Of a DNA stretch of 64,000 bases, positions 52,558-61,968 are shown piece after piece. The notes beneath the pieces are model-generated. The model was not told where the DNA came from. It saw nothing but the letters and a program-made list of their open reading frames with translations, and ran no database searches. How positions within the stretch are numbered: position 1 is the stretch's first letter; every line of letters starts with the position of its first letter. Made by a program: the position numbers and the translations under genes. Source of the DNA: Planctomycetota bacterium (GTDB lineage Bacteria; Planctomycetota; UBA1135; GCA-002686595); the NCBI GenBank assembly GCA_021413885.1, contig JAIOPM010000055.1, positions 1-64,000 on the forward strand, in the 5' to 3' direction.

Positions 52558-54177
52558 TCACGCGATGTCGACCAACTTGTGGTTGGGGTTCTTGCGCGCG
52601 GCGGCTTGCTTGTCCCATTCGCTCATGAAGAGCACCACGGTCCGCCCGCGCGCGTCGCGCGTCACCATCGACGTGGTCGGCTCGACGAACGTCTTCGGAT
52701 CGCCTTCGACCCACGCGCTGCATTCGTAGGGCAACGACGAAAGCATGGTTTCGACGCCGTACTCGTCGCGCAAACGGTACTCGAGCACTTCGAACTGCAA
52801 CTTGCCGACGGCGGCGAGCAACGGATCACTGTTCGAACGATCGTCGGTCGAGAGCTTCTGCACCGCGCCCTCGGCGATCAATTGTTCGAGACCGCGGTCG
52901 AACGACTTGCGCTTGCCGAGATCCTTCGGCGCGATCCGTGCGAACACTTCCGGTTGGAAATGCGGGAGCGGCTTGTGCTCGAAGCCGCCGCGCGTGGAAA
53001 TCGTGTCGCCGATCCGAAAGGTGCCGCGGTTGATCAGGCCGATGATGTCGCCGGGATACGCGACGTCGACGGTGTTGCGCTCCTGCGCGACCATCGAGTG
53101 CGGGCGCGAAAGACGGATATCGCGATCGAGCCGATGATGATGCACGAGCTGATCGCGCTCGAAACGCCCGGAGCACACGCGCACGAACGCGAGCGAATCG
53201 CGGTGGCGCTTGTCCATGTTCGCCTGGATCTTGAAGACGTAACCGCTGAACGGCGCGGTCACGGGATCGAGGGCGAGCTCGCCGCCGTCGGGCAGATCGA
53301 CGCGCCGCGCGCTCGGGGACGGAGCGAGTTCCGCGAACGCATCGAAGAACGGCTCGACGCCGAAGTTGGTCAACGCGGATCCGAAGAACGTCGGCGTCAC
53401 CTCGCCGCGCAGGAACGCTTCGCGCGAGAACGGATTGCCGGCGATCGAGAGCAGCTCGAGATCGTGACGCGCCTTCTCGAGCAACGTCGGTCCGACGCGC
53501 TCGAGCAGACGCGGATCGTCGAGCCCCATGCGCTCGAGCTCCGGCCTCGACGCCCCCGCCGCCGAAGTCTTGGTGAACAGGAGCACGTCGCCGGTCCCGC
53601 CGCCGTCGAGCCGCCGCTCGACGACGCCCGCGAAGTCGCGGCCCGAACCGATCGGCCAATTGAGCGCGCTCGAGTGGATGCCGAGAACTTCTTCTACCTC
53701 GTGCATCAGGTCGAGAGGCTCGCGCCCCGGCAAGTCGAGCTTGTTGACGAACGTCAACACCGGGATCTTGCGGATGCGGCAGACCTCGAAGAGCTTGCGC
53801 GTCTGCGTCTCCACGCCCTTCGCCGCGTCGAGCACCATGATCGCGGAATCCGCCGCGGTCAGAGTGCGATACGTGTCCTCGCTGAAGTCCTGGTGCCCCG
53901 GCGTGTCGAGCACGTTGATCACCGCGCCCTTGTAGGGAAACTGCATCGCCGACGAGGTGATCGAGATGCCGCGCTCCTGCTCCATCCCCATCCAATCCGA
54001 CGTCGCCATCTTCCCCTTGCGACCCTTCACCATCCCCGCGGTGCGGATCATGCCGGAGTAGAGCAGGAGCTTCTCCGTCAACGTCGTCTTGCCGGCGTCG
54101 GGATGCGAGATGATCGCGAAGGTGCGCCGCCGCGCGATCTCGCGGGCGAGCTCGTTGTCGAGGGTTTCGGAGGTCAT
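52558..54177 (-). CDS. prfC: peptide chain release factor 3
   Basis: GTPase that recycles RF1/RF2 from the ribosome after termination. The 539-residue length is normal. G1 is AIISHPDAGKTTLTEKLLLYSG, G2 lies near ISITSSAMQF, G3 is DTPGHQDFSEDTYRTL and G4 is TFVNKLDLPGREPLDL. The RF3 domain II/III blocks GDIIGLINRGTFRIGDT and FEVLEYRLRDEYGVE are present. The ATG at 54177 precedes ELAREIARRRTFAI. It is 112 bases downstream of the TPR-CHAT gene stop. Confidence 0.96.
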   Translation of the reverse strand: MTSETLDNELAREIARRRTFAIISHPDAGKTTLTEKLLLYSGMIRTAGMVKGRKGKMATSDWMGMEQERGISITSSAMQFPYKGAVINVLDTPGHQDFSEDTYRTLTAADSAIMVLDAAKGVETQTRKLFEVCRIRKIPVLTFVNKLDLPGREPLDLMHEVEEVLGIHSSALNWPIGSGRDFAGVVERRLDGGGTGDVLLFTKTSAAGASRPELERMGLDDPRLLERVGPTLLEKARHDLELLSIAGNPFSREAFLRGEVTPTFFGSALTNFGVEPFFDAFAELAPSPSARRVDLPDGGELALDPVTAPFSGYVFKIQANMDKRHRDSLAFVRVCSGRFERDQLVHHHRLDRDIRLSRPHSMVAQERNTVDVAYPGDIIGLINRGTFRIGDTISTRGGFEHKPLPHFQPEVFARIAPKDLGKRKSFDRGLEQLIAEGAVQKLSTDDRSNSDPLLAAVGKLQFEVLEYRLRDEYGVETMLSSLPYECSAWVEGDPKTFVEPTTSMVTRDARGRTVVLFMSEWDKQAAARKNPNHKLVDIA

Positions 54178-54289
54178 GGGATTCGTCGGGCGAGTCCGCG
54201 GCGCGCGCGAACCCAGGATGCGAATCGCAGAGGTTCGCCGATCCCGGCGCGCAGGTCCAGAGGTCGTTGGTGCGATCGCGCCGCGCGCC

Positions 54290-57200
54290 TCAGTCCGGCT
54301 CGCCGGTCAGCACCCACGCCGCCCAGTCGCGCGTGGTGTGGAGCGGCTTGCCGTCGGCGTCGCGTGCGTTGCGCAGCTTCGTCTTCGCCTCCCACAACGC
54401 TTGCCACTTCGGTTTCTTCTCGACCCACAGGCGCCGATAGAAGTCGAGCATCAGGTCCTTCGTCGCAACGTCCGGGACTTTCCAGAGCGACGTGATCACG
54501 CTGCGCGCGCCCGCCATCTGCAACGCCTTCTGCAAACTGGCGATGCCCCGGCCACCACGAGCGAGCTTGCCGACGCCCGTATCACATGCACTCAACACGG
54601 CGAGCTCGCAGTTCGACAGGTCGAGCGCAGCGAGTTCCTCCGCGGTGATCAAGCCGGGGACTCGGCCGAGCGGGTCCTGCCGTGAATTCGCTCCTGCCAA
54701 CGCGAGACCGCACAGCAGCAGCGGACTCATGCCCTGCACTTGCTCGTCGCCGCTCTGGCGCATGCCTAGTCCGGACCACGCGTCGAGAGGTTCGGGATCG
54801 TTCCACGAACGAATCGAGTCGGGCGCATACCAACCATGCGTCGCGACGTGAACGAACCGAGCGCGCTGAGCGAGAGCGACGACACGGACCTTCGTCGCGT
54901 CCGCGCCGTCGACGATCGTGCAGTTCGCGTCGTTCCCGAACGCGGAGACGAAGCGCGCTGCGATGCCGGCAACCTCGCTTCGCGTCGCCGGAAGCGGCGA
55001 GAAGCCCGGTGCCCACGGCGTGTCCGCCAGGATCCCCGCTTCAGACGAACCACGGGAGGGATCGTTCACGGGAGCAGCTCGAGCATCGGGCCCCGATCGC
55101 TCGCCGTAGTCGACGGCGCCGACGCCCAGCCAACCGTTCGGCGCATCGATTGCGACTTGCGCGCCGATGATCTCCGCGAGCGTCGCGCGGACGTCGATGC
55201 GAACTCCATCGCCGAGGAACGCCTCGCCCATTCGATCCGCAGGAAGTGCGTCGAGCGGCACGAGGTTCAGGACGTCGTCGAGTTCGACCACGACGTGATC
55301 GCAATCGCCCAGAGCCGGACGCAGCGGATCGAAGACCAGGCGACGCAACACATCGCCGTACCCGTTCGTGTCGGTAGCGGTCGAAGCGCCACCGACCGAT
55401 ACCCCGCGCGCGCCGGCAACGCCGAGCGCTTGCCGCCAATCCTCGACGGCACGTTCGACCGGCTCCATCGAACCGAGATCGAGGACGACGAGCCGCGGAG
55501 GGACAGCGCCGGGATCCGACCGCGAACTCCGCACCACGAACGCGCAAAGGTGCTCCGCCGATCTCGCCCCGGCCGTAGGCGTTCCGTTCGCCTTCGACGT
55601 CGCCGCCACCGCGATGTGCGACATCCGAAAGCGCCTGAAGGCGACAGCGGCATCGCGCGGACCGAGCTTCGCGGCGATCGCCTCGACCCCAGGGGCGATC
55701 CGGAACGGCATGTCCGGCAGCCCGTCGAGCAGCACGACGAGATCGCGCTCGGCGGCGTCGCGCGCCACACGCGCCCGATCGAATTCACGGCTTGTCGCTC
55801 CGTGTCGCACGAGCGTGGCGAGGTCCTCGCTTGCGGCCGACAGTGCATCGCGCAACTCGCGATAGCGCCGATCGCTCACCGCACGCTTCGAGAGCACGGT
55901 CGAAGTCAACGCGGCGCCGCGCGTGACTTCGGCGAGTTCGAAGGCGTCCGCATCCAGCTCGTGCGACGGCGAGAACACGCCGCCACCGAGCACGAGGGAC
56001 AGGACCGTGTCCAGCGCTTCGGCCGACTTCCCGCAACGCGCCTCGGCCTCGCGGGTCGGGCTCCCTACCAGCGATCGTCTCGCGGCCCGTGTCTGCGCCC
56101 GGCAGAGCCCGCCGAGCAACCCCACGCACTGCTTTCGCGCCGTCTCCCGTGCTTCGTCGTCGGCGGCCCCACGCTCCGGTTCACGCGGCGTGCGCGCGAC
56201 TTGCATGGCGATGGTCAGCGCGAGATTGCTGCGCGCGCGCTGTCGGTCCGGGTGATCATCGGGCAACGTGCGCGCGTAGGTCTCGAGGACCGACTCCTCC
56301 AACGTGCGCGCAGCGGACGGGTCGCCGAGATCCCGGAGCGTCAGCGCGAGGTCTAGTCGCGCGGCCTGGAGGTCCGGATGATCGGGAGGCAACGTGCGCG
56401 CGCGTACGTCGAGCACTTTCTCGAAGAGCGCGTGAGCGCCCTCGATGTCGCCTTGCGCCCACAGCGTGCCGGCGAGATTCTGGCGGGCTCGCTGCAGGTC
56501 GGGATGGTCGTCCGACAATCGGCTCGAGAACACCTCGAGCACTTTCTCGTCCAAGGATCGGGCGGCGGTGAGGTCGCCGAGCATGTGGAGCGTCGACGCG
56601 AGGTTCGACCGAGCTTCCTGAACGTCCCGATGGTCGTCCGACAGCGCGCGCGAGCGAACCTCGAGCGCTCGCTCCTCCAGCGCTCGCGCTCCCGCAAGGT
56701 CGCCGAGCGACTTGAGCACCACGGCCAGGTTCTGGCGCACGGCCTGCACGTCCGGGTGGTCCTCCGGGAGCGTGCGCGCGAACACCTCGAGCGTCTGCTC
56801 GAACAGGACACGAGCACCTGCAAGGTCGCCGACCGCGTACAGACTCGCCGCGAGATCGACGCGTGCATGCTGCAAGTCGCGATGGTCCGCGGGCAGGGTT
56901 CGGGTGCGAACCTCGACGACCTTCTCGTCCAACGCGCGCGCACCGTCGAGGTCCCCCAACTCCGCGAGCGTCGCGGCGAGACTGAGGCGCACGGTCTGGA
57001 GATGCGGGTGCTCGTCCGGGAGCGTGCGCGCGAAGACGTCGAGCACGGCTTGCTGAAGCTCGAGCGCTCCGTGGAGATCGCCGAGAGCCTTGATCGTCAC
57101 GGCGAGATTGAAGCGCGCCGCCTGCAGATCGGGGTGGTCGGCGGGCAACGTGCGCGAACGGACCTCGAGCACCTTCTCCTCCAACGCTCGCGCGCCTTGG

Positions 57201-58000
57201 AGATCCCCCAACTCCGCGCGAGTCTCGGCGAGGTTCTGTCGTGCCCGCTGGAGGTCGGGGTGCTCGTCGGGCAGCGTCCGTGCGAAGACATCCAGCACCT
57301 GTTCTTCCAATGCGCGTGCGCCTTCCAGGTCCCCCAGCGCGGAGATCGTCACCGCGAGATTCTGCCGCGCGATCTGGAGATCGCGGTGATCCGGGGGCAG
57401 CGTGCGCAGCCGCACCGCAAGAACCTGCTGTTCGAGTGCGAGCGCCGCCGGCAGATCGCCCAGCGTCTTGATCGTCACGGCGAGGTTCTGTCGCACCGCT
57501 TGCAGTTCGGGATGCTCCTCCGGCAGCACACGCGCCAACACCGCTTGCACCTTCTCGAGGAGCGCGTGCGCTCCTTCGACGTCTCCGAGCGACTGGAGCG
57601 CCAACGCGAGATGGCCCCTGACCCGCTGGAGTTCCAGATCGTCGTCCGGAAGCGCGAGCTCACGGTGCGCGAGCACTTCCGCCCAGGCGCTTCGCGCGGT
57701 GCCCGCGTCCTGCGCTTGCCAAGCGGAAAGACCGGCCTCGTCGAGAAGCTCCAACCACGACGCATCGCGCTCGGCGGCCGGTCGCTCCAACAGCAGGGTG
57801 ACAGCTTCGGTCGCTCGCTCGCGCGCCGCTGCGTAGTCCGAGGCGTCCCGCGCGACGTTCGCGTCGCGGAGCAGGCCGCGCACCGGTTCGGCGTCGACCG
57901 CCGATCCAGGCGACATCGCCGGCGACTCGGCCGGCACGGACCGGGTCGCGGAGGTGCAGGCCGCCACCGCAGCGAGCACGAGAAGTTGGAGTCGCCTCAT
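54290..58000 (-). CDS. TPR-CHAT (caspase-like) lipoprotein
   Basis: A 1236-residue exported protein. MRRLQLLVLAAVAAC forms a lipoprotein signal (Cys15). Residues about 115-600 are 11 full and one partial 42-residue TPRs of kinesin-light-chain type (ARTLPDEHPDLQRARQNLAETRAELGD and relatives). After a helical spacer, residues about 820-1236 form a CHAT domain. The catalytic dyad is visible as VATHGWYAP (His1055) and LSACDTGVGKLARGGRG (Cys1139); LVPLDALP and ITSLWKVPD are other family marks. CHAT proteases cleave protein partners, often on a trigger sensed by the TPRs. Secretion is unusual for the type. It is 82 bases downstream of the hybrid kinase stop on the same strand. Confidence 0.93.
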   Translation of the reverse strand: MRRLQLLVLAAVAACTSATRSVPAESPAMSPGSAVDAEPVRGLLRDANVARDASDYAAARERATEAVTLLLERPAAERDASWLELLDEAGLSAWQAQDAGTARSAWAEVLAHRELALPDDDLELQRVRGHLALALQSLGDVEGAHALLEKVQAVLARVLPEEHPELQAVRQNLAVTIKTLGDLPAALALEQQVLAVRLRTLPPDHRDLQIARQNLAVTISALGDLEGARALEEQVLDVFARTLPDEHPDLQRARQNLAETRAELGDLQGARALEEKVLEVRSRTLPADHPDLQAARFNLAVTIKALGDLHGALELQQAVLDVFARTLPDEHPHLQTVRLSLAATLAELGDLDGARALDEKVVEVRTRTLPADHRDLQHARVDLAASLYAVGDLAGARVLFEQTLEVFARTLPEDHPDVQAVRQNLAVVLKSLGDLAGARALEERALEVRSRALSDDHRDVQEARSNLASTLHMLGDLTAARSLDEKVLEVFSSRLSDDHPDLQRARQNLAGTLWAQGDIEGAHALFEKVLDVRARTLPPDHPDLQAARLDLALTLRDLGDPSAARTLEESVLETYARTLPDDHPDRQRARSNLALTIAMQVARTPREPERGAADDEARETARKQCVGLLGGLCRAQTRAARRSLVGSPTREAEARCGKSAEALDTVLSLVLGGGVFSPSHELDADAFELAEVTRGAALTSTVLSKRAVSDRRYRELRDALSAASEDLATLVRHGATSREFDRARVARDAAERDLVVLLDGLPDMPFRIAPGVEAIAAKLGPRDAAVAFRRFRMSHIAVAATSKANGTPTAGARSAEHLCAFVVRSSRSDPGAVPPRLVVLDLGSMEPVERAVEDWRQALGVAGARGVSVGGASTATDTNGYGDVLRRLVFDPLRPALGDCDHVVVELDDVLNLVPLDALPADRMGEAFLGDGVRIDVRATLAEIIGAQVAIDAPNGWLGVGAVDYGERSGPDARAAPVNDPSRGSSEAGILADTPWAPGFSPLPATRSEVAGIAARFVSAFGNDANCTIVDGADATKVRVVALAQRARFVHVATHGWYAPDSIRSWNDPEPLDAWSGLGMRQSGDEQVQGMSPLLLCGLALAGANSRQDPLGRVPGLITAEELAALDLSNCELAVLSACDTGVGKLARGGRGIASLQKALQMAGARSVITSLWKVPDVATKDLMLDFYRRLWVEKKPKWQALWEAKTKLRNARDADGKPLHTTRDWAAWVLTGEPD
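56201..57538 (-). repeat. 126-base tandem repeats in TPR region (252-base higher-order unit)
   Basis: Ten full plus one partial 126-base units, each coding one 42-residue TPR. Successive repeats alternate at their first residues between R-x-R-T-L and F-A-R-T-L types, so the array appears to have grown by duplication of a two-TPR, 252-base unit. Confidence 0.8.
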
Positions 58001-58082: not shown

Positions 58083-60077
58083 TCACACCCTCGCATGCAG
58101 CATCGCCCGCACCTTCGCCAGCAGCTCGCTCAGCATGTACGGCTTCGCGATGAACTCGTAGCCCGCGCCCGCGATCGCGCGCCGGTCGACCAGATCGTCG
58201 GTGTAGCCCGACATCAACAGCACCGGCAGGTCGGGGCGCACGTCGCGCAGCCGATCCGCGAGATCGCGGCCGTTCATGTGCGGCATCACGACGTCGGTGA
58301 CGAGGAGCTCGACGCGCGCGCCTTCGCGGCCGAAGAGCTCGAGCGCTTCGCGGCCGTCGCCCGCCTCGAGCACGACGTAGCCCTGGCGCGCGAGCGCGCT
58401 GAAGACCATGCGCCGCAACGACGGCTCGTCCTCGACCAACAACACGGTGCCCGAATCGTTCGGCGCGGCGCCGACGGCGGCGAAGGCCTTCGGCGGCGCG
58501 GGCTCGCCCTCGGCGCGCGGCAACGCGATCCGGAAGCACGAGCCTCGACCGATCGCGCTCTCGACCGTGATCGCGCCGCCGCTCGCGCTGACGATGCCGT
58601 GCACGGTCGCGAGGCCGAGGCCGGTGCCCTTGCCGCGCGGCTTGGTGGTGAAGAACGGCTCGAAGAGCCGCGCCTGCGTCGCCGGATCCATGCCGACGCC
58701 GTCGTCGCGCACCGCGAGCTCGACGTAACGTCCGGGCGCGAGCAGATCGAAACCCTCGTCGCGTCCGCCGACCAGCGTCAAATTGCGCGTCGAGATCACG
58801 ATGCGTCCGCCGTTCGGCAACGCGTCGCGCGCGTTGACGATCAAGTTCACGAGCACCTGCTCGAGCTGCGACGGATCGACGAGCACGCGGCCGAGGCGCG
58901 GCTCGGTCTCGAGCAGCAGCTCGACGTCCTCGCCGATCAAGCGCCGCAACATCACCAGCAGGTTCGCGATCAACGCGTCGAAGTCGACGACGGCGGGCGC
59001 GACGAGCTGTTGGCGGCTGAACGCGAGCAGTTGCTGCGTCAACGACTTCGCGCGACCGCACGCGGCGTGGATCTCGTCGACGCACGCGCGCGCCGGATCG
59101 TCGCCGGCGAGCGTGTTGCGCGCGAGCTCGCTGTAGCCGTGGATCACCGTCAACAAGTTGTTGAAGTCGTGCGCGATGCCGCCGGCGAGGCGGCCGATCG
59201 CTTCGAGCTTGTCGACCTGGCGCAGCCGGCGCTCAGCTTCCTCGCGCTCGATGCGCTCGCGCTCGAGGCGTTCGTTCGCCGTCACCAATTCGACCGTGCG
59301 CTCCTCGACGCGCAGTTCGAGCTCGTCGCGGCTGCGGCGCAACTCCTCTTCGAGACGTTTCCGCGCGAAGAAGTCGGGGATCTCGTAGCTGCCGACGCGC
59401 GGCAAGAGTTCCGGCCGCGTGCTCAAGTAGTTCGCGACGCGCTCCTCGATCCGCGCCGGCGGCGCCATCACGAAACGACAGCAATCGTCGCCCTTCGCGC
59501 GGCACAGGATCTCGGCGGCGACGAGCTCGACACCGAAGCTCGCCTCGGTCCAACCCGACGAGTAACCGGCATTCATGATGCACACCGGGAACGTCGCGCG
59601 TTCGCCCGCAGCCATCCACGCGTGCGATTCGAACGAGTACGGATGGTCGTAGACGAGGAAGCAGCTCTCGTCCTGCGCAGGCGTCGACTCCTCGAAGAGG
59701 TCGACGAACGCCCATCCGGTGTACGCGAAGTGCACGGGGCCGGCGGAGAGCTTCGCGACCGGATCGACGAGGCCCATGCGCTTGTGGAACGCTTGCGCGT
59801 CGGACTTGCCGATCGCGTGCGCGAGGTCGAAGAGGATGTTGCGCGCGAAGCGTTCGGCCTCGGCCTCGCGACCGGCGCCGTAGAGCTCGCGCGCGACGCG
59901 GAAGAACTCGACCGACAACGCGGCGCCGCGCACCAGGACGTAGCGCTCCTCGAAGACTTCGATCGTGCCTTGCTCGGGATCCTCGCGGCGGCGCGCGAAG
60001 TAGGAAGCGACGGTCTTCTCCGCGGTCGCGAAGAGCTCGCGCATCGACTCGGGCACGCGAACGGTCTTCGGATCCAT
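58083..60077 (-). CDS. hybrid sensor histidine kinase with V4R/XylR-N-like sensor and receiver domain
   Basis: A 664-residue soluble two-component protein. Residues about 40-215 form a sensor related to the XylR N-terminal/V4R domains that bind small aromatics or hydrocarbons: GYSSGWTEASFGVELVAAE and the cysteine pair CRAKGDDCCRFV. A coiled coil (235-290) leads to HisKA with the phosphoacceptor His303 (GGIAHDFNNLLTVIHGYSELA) and an HATPase (NLIVNARDALPNGG, VRDDGVGM, GKGTGLGLATVHG). A C-terminal receiver follows, with LLVTDVVMPHMNG (Asp595) and AKPY (Lys645). No membrane segment is seen, so it senses a cytoplasmic signal. It lies between the M28 peptidase (22 bases) and the TPR-CHAT gene. Confidence 0.93.
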   Translation of the reverse strand: MDPKTVRVPESMRELFATAEKTVASYFARRREDPEQGTIEVFEERYVLVRGAALSVEFFRVARELYGAGREAEAERFARNILFDLAHAIGKSDAQAFHKRMGLVDPVAKLSAGPVHFAYTGWAFVDLFEESTPAQDESCFLVYDHPYSFESHAWMAAGERATFPVCIMNAGYSSGWTEASFGVELVAAEILCRAKGDDCCRFVMAPPARIEERVANYLSTRPELLPRVGSYEIPDFFARKRLEEELRRSRDELELRVEERTVELVTANERLERERIEREEAERRLRQVDKLEAIGRLAGGIAHDFNNLLTVIHGYSELARNTLAGDDPARACVDEIHAACGRAKSLTQQLLAFSRQQLVAPAVVDFDALIANLLVMLRRLIGEDVELLLETEPRLGRVLVDPSQLEQVLVNLIVNARDALPNGGRIVISTRNLTLVGGRDEGFDLLAPGRYVELAVRDDGVGMDPATQARLFEPFFTTKPRGKGTGLGLATVHGIVSASGGAITVESAIGRGSCFRIALPRAEGEPAPPKAFAAVGAAPNDSGTVLLVEDEPSLRRMVFSALARQGYVVLEAGDGREALELFGREGARVELLVTDVVMPHMNGRDLADRLRDVRPDLPVLLMSGYTDDLVDRRAIAGAGYEFIAKPYMLSELLAKVRAMLHARV

Positions 60078-60099: not shown

Positions 60100-61968
60100 C
60101 TACTGTTTGTTGCGGGTCGCGAGCGTGACGCGCACGCTCTCTTCCTTGCCGTCGCGCAGGAACTTCGCGAGCACCGTGTCCCCCGCCTTGTAGAGCGAGA
60201 GCATGTAGACGAAGTCCTGCATCGTGTCGATCTTCACGTCCCCGACCTGGATCAACACGTCGTCCTTCCGCATGCCCGCCTTCTCGGCCGGACTGCCCGC
60301 GGAGGTTCCGGCGAGCTTCAGTCCCGGGCCCTCGAACGAATACTCGGGCACGGTGCCGAACCACGTTCCGTTGCTGCCGCGCGACGGCGCGGCCGGCGCA
60401 TTCGGATCCTTCAGCGGCTCGACGTACGCGAGCTCGCCCGCCGCGCCGAGTTTCGCGATCAAGTCGACGGTCAAATCGACGGTCGCGGCCGCGCCGTCGG
60501 ACTCGAAGCGTTCGATGTCGTCGCTCGGCTTGTGGTAGTCGTCGTGGACGCCGCTGAAGAAGTGCAGTGCGGGAATGCGGTGTTCGAGGAACGGTTGGTG
60601 GTCGCTGCCGCCGATGCCTTGGCCGCTGCCGTTCAACGCGAGCTCGAAACCGTGGTCGCGACCGAGTTCACCGAGCCACGCTTCGAACGGCGCCGCGCTC
60701 GCGACGCCGAGGACCTGGAGCTTGTGTGCGTGCGCGCGCCCGACCATGTCGAGGTTGACGTTCGCCGCGACGCTCGCGAGCGGAACCGTCGGCTGCTCGA
60801 TCCAATGACGACTGCCGAGCAGCCCGAGTTCCTCGCCCGACCACGCGGCGAAGACCACGTCGCATTCGAGGGTCTCGCGTTGCGACAGGAGCCGCGCGAT
60901 CTCCAGGATCGCCGCCGTGCCGCTCGCGTTGTCGTCGGCGCCGTTGTGGATCGCGTGGACGCCGGGCGCCTTCGATTCCGGTCCGCCCATGCCGAGGTGA
61001 TCGTAGTGCGCTCCCACGACGATGCAGCGCGCGCTCGTCTTGCCCTTCAAACGCGCGAGCACGTTGAACGCCGCGCCTTTCTTGTGTTCGACGTCGGCGA
61101 CGACTTCGACGGTGCGTTCGGGCGCGCCGACCTCGACCAAACCCTTCATCGGATGGTCGAGCATCCAGCTCAACGTCTGCACGTACTCCGGCGCGAGCTC
61201 CATGAGCACCTGCGCCGACACGATCAACACCGGCAGCGACGTCGCGCGCGCTTCCGCAGCGTCGAACGCGGGCAGGGCCTCGGGGTGCTCGGGATGCTCG
61301 ACGACGACCACCGCGACCGCGCCACGGCGCTTGCAGTTCATCACCTTGGTCAACACCGAGGTGCTCGCGCCCCAATCGTTTCCCGCGACGACGTTCGCGT
61401 TCGCGTCGGCGACCGGAGCCGCCTTGCGACGCGGCGGCGCGCCGCGCACGATCAACGCGACGCGGCCGGCGAGCGAGTCGTTCGCGTCGAGCCCGAGCTG
61501 CTTGAAGTCGTTCCACTCGAGCGCGTCGTTCTCGACGCCGTAGCCCGCGAACGCGAGCGTTCCGGTCGCGCTCGCGCCGTCGGAGCAGTACGCGGGGACT
61601 ATTCGATCGGCGCCGCTCCAAGACTGCGTGCCGCACGAGACCTTCGAGCCGCCGCGATCGACGGCGGCGAGCGGCACGTCGAACGGTTGGAGGAAGCCCT
61701 GCTCCCCCGCCGGCTCGAGCCCGAGCGCCGCGAAACGCTCCGCGAGCCACTCGCCGCAACGACGTGCGTCGTCGGTGCCCGCGCGTCGTCCGCCTTGCGC
61801 GTCGTCGGCGAGCCACGCGACGTCGTCGTGCAGTCGCTGCGCGTCGGCGAGTCGCGCGCTCGACGACGAGCTCGTCGCCGGCGCCGTCGACTCGCGCGGC
61901 GCGGTCGAACAAGCGGCCAAGATCGTCGCGCTCAGGAACCCGAGTTGGAACGTTCGTCGCAGGTGCAT
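60100..61968 (-). CDS. M28-family metallopeptidase lipoprotein with PA and PDZ domains
   Basis: A 622-residue exported zinc aminopeptidase. The signal QLGFLSATILAAC ends in a lipobox (Cys20), followed by a Ser-rich linker. A protease-associated region (about 110-290) precedes the M28 core: GAHYDHLGMGG (His), NGADDNASGTAAI (bridging Asp), AWSGEELGLLGSRHW (catalytic and metal Glu), VNLDMVGR (Asp) and GGSDHQPF (His). A C-terminal PDZ (GTSAGSPAEKAGMRKDDVLIQVGDVKID) probably binds substrate ends. It likely trims peptides in the periplasm. A TATCTT box lies six bases upstream of the ATG. Confidence 0.94.
   Translation of the reverse strand: MHLRRTFQLGFLSATILAACSTAPRESTAPATSSSSSARLADAQRLHDDVAWLADDAQGGRRAGTDDARRCGEWLAERFAALGLEPAGEQGFLQPFDVPLAAVDRGGSKVSCGTQSWSGADRIVPAYCSDGASATGTLAFAGYGVENDALEWNDFKQLGLDANDSLAGRVALIVRGAPPRRKAAPVADANANVVAGNDWGASTSVLTKVMNCKRRGAVAVVVVEHPEHPEALPAFDAAEARATSLPVLIVSAQVLMELAPEYVQTLSWMLDHPMKGLVEVGAPERTVEVVADVEHKKGAAFNVLARLKGKTSARCIVVGAHYDHLGMGGPESKAPGVHAIHNGADDNASGTAAILEIARLLSQRETLECDVVFAAWSGEELGLLGSRHWIEQPTVPLASVAANVNLDMVGRAHAHKLQVLGVASAAPFEAWLGELGRDHGFELALNGSGQGIGGSDHQPFLEHRIPALHFFSGVHDDYHKPSDDIERFESDGAAATVDLTVDLIAKLGAAGELAYVEPLKDPNAPAAPSRGSNGTWFGTVPEYSFEGPGLKLAGTSAGSPAEKAGMRKDDVLIQVGDVKIDTMQDFVYMLSLYKAGDTVLAKFLRDGKEESVRVTLATRNKQ

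Follow-up and report, generated by a model that had tools for sequence, protein, structure and literature searches.

Can a bacterial CHAT protease act outside the cytoplasm, and does it work with the genes beside it? These questions are raised by a gene in a 64,000-nucleotide stretch of a Planctomycetota bacterium genome (contig JAIOPM010000055.1 of assembly GCA_021413885.1, positions 1 to 64,000; hereafter the window), which encodes a protein with a lipoprotein-type N-terminus, a long array of tetratricopeptide repeats (TPRs) and a C-terminal caspase-like CHAT domain. To our knowledge, those bacterial CHAT proteases whose role is established (Csx29, SAVED-CHAT, and further defence effectors) are all intracellular. 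Our analysis favours, with moderate confidence, a stand-alone, exported, and lipid-anchored TPR-CHAT protein that would act as a ligand-triggered, caspase-type protease on an envelope or extracellular protein, as a member of a lineage-expanded family of inserted genes that stands apart from the neighboring M28 peptidase and kinase genes.

Export signal and probable lipid anchor

The N-terminus of the TPR-CHAT protein, MRRLQLLVLAAVAA-C15, is basic at its start and then hydrophobic, and it carries a canonical lipobox, VAA-C15. It is the most hydrophobic stretch in the protein, and a scan of the remaining sequence with a 19-residue window revealed no further membrane segment. A codon-model gene call also placed the gene start at 58000. 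With an alternative upstream ATG at 58096, the reading frame would run across the stop codon of the kinase gene (58083) and gain 32 residues, which are mostly hydrophilic.

The source genome (4.74 Mb in 62 contigs, 87.6% complete), whose nearest named relatives are Planctomycetota metagenome-assembled genomes (MAGs), encodes 12 CHAT proteins, and their N-termini were obtained with a home-made gene caller and then inspected by eye. All 12 carried an export-like N-terminus. Nine of them form one TPR_10-CHAT group, 40-70% identical across the last 680 residues, and paralogs carry the same short N-terminus as the window copy (MSLARLSLVLLVAAC, MSLVRLLLLLPIVSC, and MLLVRLFLVLLSVVSC). Canonical lipoboxes were found in the window copy and L016_5224 (both VAAC), L015_4361 (VVSC), and L018 (IVSC), while L014, L015_8172, and L016_8647 have signal-peptide-like starts in place of a lipobox. 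The lipoprotein signal proposed in an earlier sequence-only reading of the window is thus present, with homologous N-termini in paralogs. Export-like starts were also seen in the three more distant CHAT proteins, L013, L020, and L021, the lipobox of L013 reading IGSC; the one in L021 (9415-11856) is a divergent CHAT protein that combines a signal-like N-terminal stretch with a hydrophobic C-terminal anchor.

Among long planctomycete homologs, 54 of 61 had an export-like start (9 with a lipobox, 45 signal-peptide-like). In control genes, to which a similar rule was applied, 67 of 149 (45%) were signal-like and 13 of 149 lipobox-like; both counts come from a generous home-made rule, and the control set contains truly exported proteins. 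Outside Planctomycetota, a conservative version of the rule classified 25 of 40 long homologs as signal-like. Because the export-like N-termini across the family (12/12 and 54/61) exceed the rate in control genes, the signal is unlikely to be a chance match. Lgt and LspA are both encoded in the source genome.

Independent support for export comes from the relatives with a signal peptide. Their N-terminal domain, modeled from nine sequences (predicted local distance difference test score [pLDDT] 76.8), resembled the PPC/collagen-binding domain of secreted collagenases (ColG PPC, 1nqj; E 7e-4, TMt 0.85), and the same domain had no Pfam match at E 0.1. PPC domains are features of secreted proteins. 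Judged from these N-termini, the TPR-CHAT protein is probably exported and lipid-anchored to the envelope.

TPR array and catalytic domain

Pfam TPR_10 matched the 1,236-residue protein in 11 stretches (E 6.5e-83), which agrees to half a repeat with the approximately 11.5 TPRs of the sequence-only reading. The best match of the array in the PDB was kinesin light chain, and a period of 126 bp was detected in the DNA of the window copy at 56910-57407, within the array. The CHAT domain scored 154.8 bits (E 4.2e-45) against Pfam PF12770, for which the curated cut-off is 24. The model for the TPR protein of the FxSxx-COOH system (NF040586) scored 291.8 bits, below its cut-off of 300, with its best stretch within the TPRs, and the protein had no match among the anti-phage defence families of PADLOC-DB at E 0.01.

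His1055 and Cys1139, which had been proposed as the catalytic dyad, are both found at these positions and are invariant (columns H459 and C543) in a MAFFT alignment (A2) of 42 sequences from Planctomycetota, Acidobacteriota, Cyanobacteria, Bacteroidota, and Proteobacteria, with identities down to 19-25%. The equivalent of Cys1139 was kept in 115 of 117 aligned homologs. Structural modeling, which the sequence-only reading had suggested as a check for an intact CHAT fold, gave a confident AlphaFold model for the last 640 residues (mean pLDDT 84.6, predicted template modeling score 0.89). In this model, His1055 follows the strand at 453-457 and Cys1139 the strand at 537-541, a caspase-like placement. 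The top Foldseek match was the Craspase TPR-CHAT protein Csx29 (7y8t, E 5.4e-10), with DdvA (8rot, E 4.6e-9; 8rw5, E 1e-8), separases, gingipain RgpB (E 1.4e-4), and SAVED-CHAT at lower ranks. A profile search of the PDB from the first nine-sequence alignment returned chance matches only. With a profile score above the cut-off, a His/Cys dyad, and a predicted caspase/separase-type fold, the domain is assigned to the CHAT family, and its conserved dyad and modeled fold point to proteolysis.

Distribution and expansion of exported TPR-CHAT proteins

The sequence-only reading had regarded known TPR-containing CHAT proteases as cytoplasmic and an envelope-anchored version as exceptional. This view does not hold. 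Signal-bearing TPR-CHAT proteins are the rule among planctomycete relatives, frequent in Cyanobacteria, Bacteroidota, and Betaproteobacteria, and also present in Acidobacteriota; in addition, the transmembrane protein DdvA is among the closest folds, and the CHAT-TPR protein HetF is membrane-localized, at the divisome (PMC8406250). N-terminal helices or signal peptides were seen in related metacaspases in 2012, and extracellular action was proposed for them (PMC3501461). In the literature, which we covered in part, we found no description of TPR-CHAT lipoproteins. Exported bacterial caspase relatives are a widespread, hardly studied class.

CHAT was present in 96 of the 128 genomes of the class, usually in one or a few copies. 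The source genome has 12 copies, its congeners 4-5, and G022, G024, G071, and G100 at least 16-17; no more than 17 candidates were scored per genome, so the top values are lower bounds. G024, the Planctomycetota isolate OFTM220, gave 33 matches to the subfamily profile, and G100 at least 17 CHAT domains. In the phylogenetic tree, the window copy falls in a group of five copies from its own genome (Shimodaira-Hasegawa-like approximate likelihood ratio test support 88). This group lies inside a larger, mixed one that also contains copies from two other planctomycete MAGs, which indicates exchange at an earlier stage as well as duplication later on. Copies with a lipobox and copies with a signal peptide are intermixed in the tree, suggesting that the mode of anchoring changes easily.

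CHAT genes often occur in tandem. In the pairs at L015 4361-11816 and L016 5224-12030, a lipoprotein TPR-CHAT gene is followed after approximately 30-50 bp by a signal-peptide TPR-CHAT gene whose product has a PPC-like N-terminal domain. The TPR array of L015_4361 (L015 4794-6217) consists of 11.3 near-uniform 126-bp units, which suggests recent repeat homogenization or expansion; the TPR units of the window copy are far less uniform. The family is lineage-expanded and has spread by duplication and insertion through an otherwise syntenic chromosome.

Genomic neighborhood and insertion site

The positions of the gene, its features, and its neighbors are given in Table 1. The M28 peptidase, kinase, CHAT, and prfC-like genes lie in this order and on the same strand, separated by 22, 82, and 112 bp.

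Table 1. Positions of the TPR-CHAT gene, its predicted features, and flanking elements in the window
Feature	Position	Strand	Description and basis
TPR-CHAT lipoprotein gene	54290..58000	minus	1236 aa, ATG start; open reading frame and translation, Pfam TPR_10 x11 and CHAT
Predicted lipoprotein signal MRRLQLLVLAAVAA-C15	57956..58000	minus	predicted lipid-modified Cys15, +2 residue Thr; same pattern in L015_4361, L016_5224, and L018
TPR array	56207..57652	minus	42-residue kinesin-light-chain-type units, approximately residues 117-598; Pfam TPR_10
CHAT (caspase-like) domain, PF12770	54302..55357	minus	residues 882-1233; Pfam, genome search, structure model, Foldseek
Catalytic-type His1055 codon	54836..54838	minus	VHVATHG; invariant in A2; after predicted strand
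Catalytic-type Cys1139 codon	54584..54586	minus	VLSACDTG; invariant in A2; after predicted strand
M28 peptidase lipoprotein with PDZ domain	60100..61968	minus	second upstream neighbor; Pfam; outside the CHAT system
Hybrid histidine kinase	58083..60077	minus	upstream neighbor, N-terminal V4R/XylR_N-like domain; Pfam; outside the CHAT system
prfC-like GTPase (peptide chain release factor 3)	52558..54177	minus	downstream neighbor; named from sequence alone; outside the CHAT system
Element GATCGGCGAACCTCTGCGATTC	54216..54244	minus	upstream of prfC; intergenic comparison with L122, L123, and L124; marks the insertion site

Three congeners keep the order M28-kinase-prfC with orthologs that are 67-88% identical, and in all three the kinase and prfC are 83-427 bp apart and the CHAT gene is absent. 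Because these genes are kept in order without it, the CHAT gene of the window is an insertion, or it was lost in all three congeners. In the window, the element GATCGGCGAACCTCTGCGATTC, which is conserved in the four congeneric genomes, remains undisturbed in the gap from the CHAT stop to prfC; it is probably the promoter or leader of prfC. The congeners compared likewise lacked CHAT at the L016 site, which holds a tandem pair, and at the L017 and L018 sites, while the flanking genes were broadly in order, and at some of these sites a congener carries another gene instead. The L015 pair has a serine recombinase fragment next to it (L015 2858-3934), and a tyrosine recombinase (L019 4500-5045) is found near the L019 CHAT gene; no such recombinase turned up at the window copy.

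The same congener synteny contradicts a circuit of the hybrid kinase, the M28 lipoprotein, and the CHAT protein, which the sequence-only reading had put forward. A search for conserved neighbors of homologs, which it had also suggested for homologs with the same lipobox, revealed no recurring family beyond generic ones in blastp clusters of genes up to four positions away at many planctomycete CHAT loci; the neighbors that recurred were ABC ATPases, Ser/Thr kinases, and sulfatases, in addition to one orthologous locus pair. No 8-mer was shared by more than 4 of 10 upstream regions of the paralogs, and hence no shared promoter was detected. In each of the four genomes compared within the genus, the gene for the hybrid kinase adjoins that for the M28-PDZ lipoprotein. 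Thus, what stands of the earlier interpretation is a protein that is exported, probably lipid-anchored, and equipped with an intact dyad and a confidently modeled CHAT fold, while its exceptionality and its circuit have to be given up.

Proposed mechanism and alternative explanations

We infer the following mechanism. The protein would be exported by Sec and then lipidated at Cys15, and its TPR solenoid, facing the envelope or the outside, would bind a peptide or protein ligand. Ligand binding would switch on the C-terminal cysteine protease (His1055/Cys1139), which may cut a protein of the envelope or of the extracellular space; a sister CHAT protein is one possible substrate. If the family is proteolytic, a whole caspase-fold enzyme class would act outside planctomycete cells, with at least 17 copies in some genomes. 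Its lipoprotein copies offer a tractable entry: they are single genes without an apparent obligate partner, their dyad can be mutated, and there are congeners that naturally lack them.

Several points weigh against this mechanism. The lipoboxes of two paralogs, L017 (GSAC) and L019 (IATC), are less canonical; the export calls come from a hydropathy and lipobox rule, not from SignalP; and a lipobox leaves the membrane and its face undefined. In the structure model, the block around Cys1139 is of lower confidence (mean pLDDT 65), and a conserved dyad may be retained for structure or binding. The chief rival is a non-proteolytic sensor role, in which CHAT would serve the exported lipoprotein as a ligand-binding or scaffold module, in a surface sensor or adhesion-type protein modeled on the TPR-CHAT-like part of DdvA. 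We regard this as a serious but minority possibility: DdvA ranks with the nearest solved structures, both long TPR arrays and PPC domains serve in binding, and no substrate gene linked to CHAT loci was found. However, the His/Cys pair is invariant across phyla and in an expanding family, where a pure scaffold would not need a dyad, and the fold relatives separase, Csx29, and gingipain are proteases. The proteolytic, ligand-triggered lipoprotein is thus the reading that we retain.

A recognition or conflict system, active in kin discrimination, predation, or envelope anti-phage defence, with variable TPRs for recognition and CHAT as the effector, appears unlikely. The patchy occurrence across the class, from 0 to at least 17 copies, the insertion differences among congeners, the tandem pairs, the recombinase genes adjoining some copies, and TPR arrays that vary in length, with near-uniform 126-bp units in L015, would all fit such a system, as would the control of a Myxococcus defence island by DdvS, the sigma factor that DdvA partners (PMC12288465). 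Nevertheless, no immunity, toxin, or secretion partner was linked to the CHAT genes, PADLOC gave no match, and export differs from the known intracellular CHAT defence effectors. Equally doubtful in our estimate is the wider idea that these form a large, polymorphic set of extracytoplasmic caspase-like proteases of Planctomycetota, in which lipid-anchored and soluble pairs with variable TPR arrays, spread by insertion, would serve surface recognition or conflict and would mirror, outside the cell, the intracellular CHAT effectors. A cytoplasmic TPR-CHAT protein, with the lipobox as a chance match ahead of the true start, is very improbable. The signal is short (15 residues), other starts exist upstream (58096) and downstream (Met29), and planctomycete starts are hard to call, but the N-termini of the paralogs are alike despite 40-70% identity in the C-terminal 680 residues, relatives have a signal peptide and a PPC fold, and the upstream start runs into the kinase gene. 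We give the least credence to a circuit in which the hybrid kinase and the M28 lipoprotein would have the CHAT protein as their output protease: the shared strand and the short gaps of 22 and 82 bp are contradicted by the synteny of the three congeners, and no other CHAT copy has such neighbors.

Comparison with known systems

Csx29, from the type III-E CRISPR Craspase, shares with the window protein the combination of TPRs and a C-terminal CHAT domain with a His/Cys dyad and is its best solved fold match. In contrast, the two proteins have only about 10% identity, the window protein has a long kinesin-light-chain-type TPR array, and Csx29 is not exported. Membership in a Craspase system was rejected, as a PF03787 search for a RAMP-type Cas protein (a Cas7-11 partner) was empty in the 87.6% complete source genome while the controls worked.

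DdvA of Myxococcus xanthus is likewise a membrane protein whose fold matches the TPR-CHAT module, but it is a transmembrane anti-sigma factor of the extracytoplasmic function (ECF) sigma factor DdvS (PMC4374960), and no sigma factor gene adjoins the window gene. A DdvA-type anti-sigma factor was also rejected on topology: no hydrophobic segment was seen within the window protein, and its TPR region is preceded by the lipobox alone. HetF of Anabaena resembles the window protein in combining CHAT and TPRs at the membrane, but its CHAT domain lies within residues 1-555, it has one predicted transmembrane segment and works with FtsI in division, and no lipobox has been described for it. The order of lipobox, TPRs, and CHAT in the window protein differs from an N-terminal CHAT domain with a separate transmembrane segment, and the HetF type was therefore set aside.

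Sequence databases also contain exported CHAT-TPR proteins from Cyanobacteria, Bacteroidota, and Betaproteobacteria. Uncharacterized in the literature that we found, these are mostly of the signal-peptide rather than the lipobox type, but they share an N-terminal signal and a C-terminal CHAT domain with the dyad. Gingipain RgpB (C25) belongs to a different family and has no TPRs, but it is, as we propose for the window protein, a caspase-fold cysteine protease that acts after secretion.

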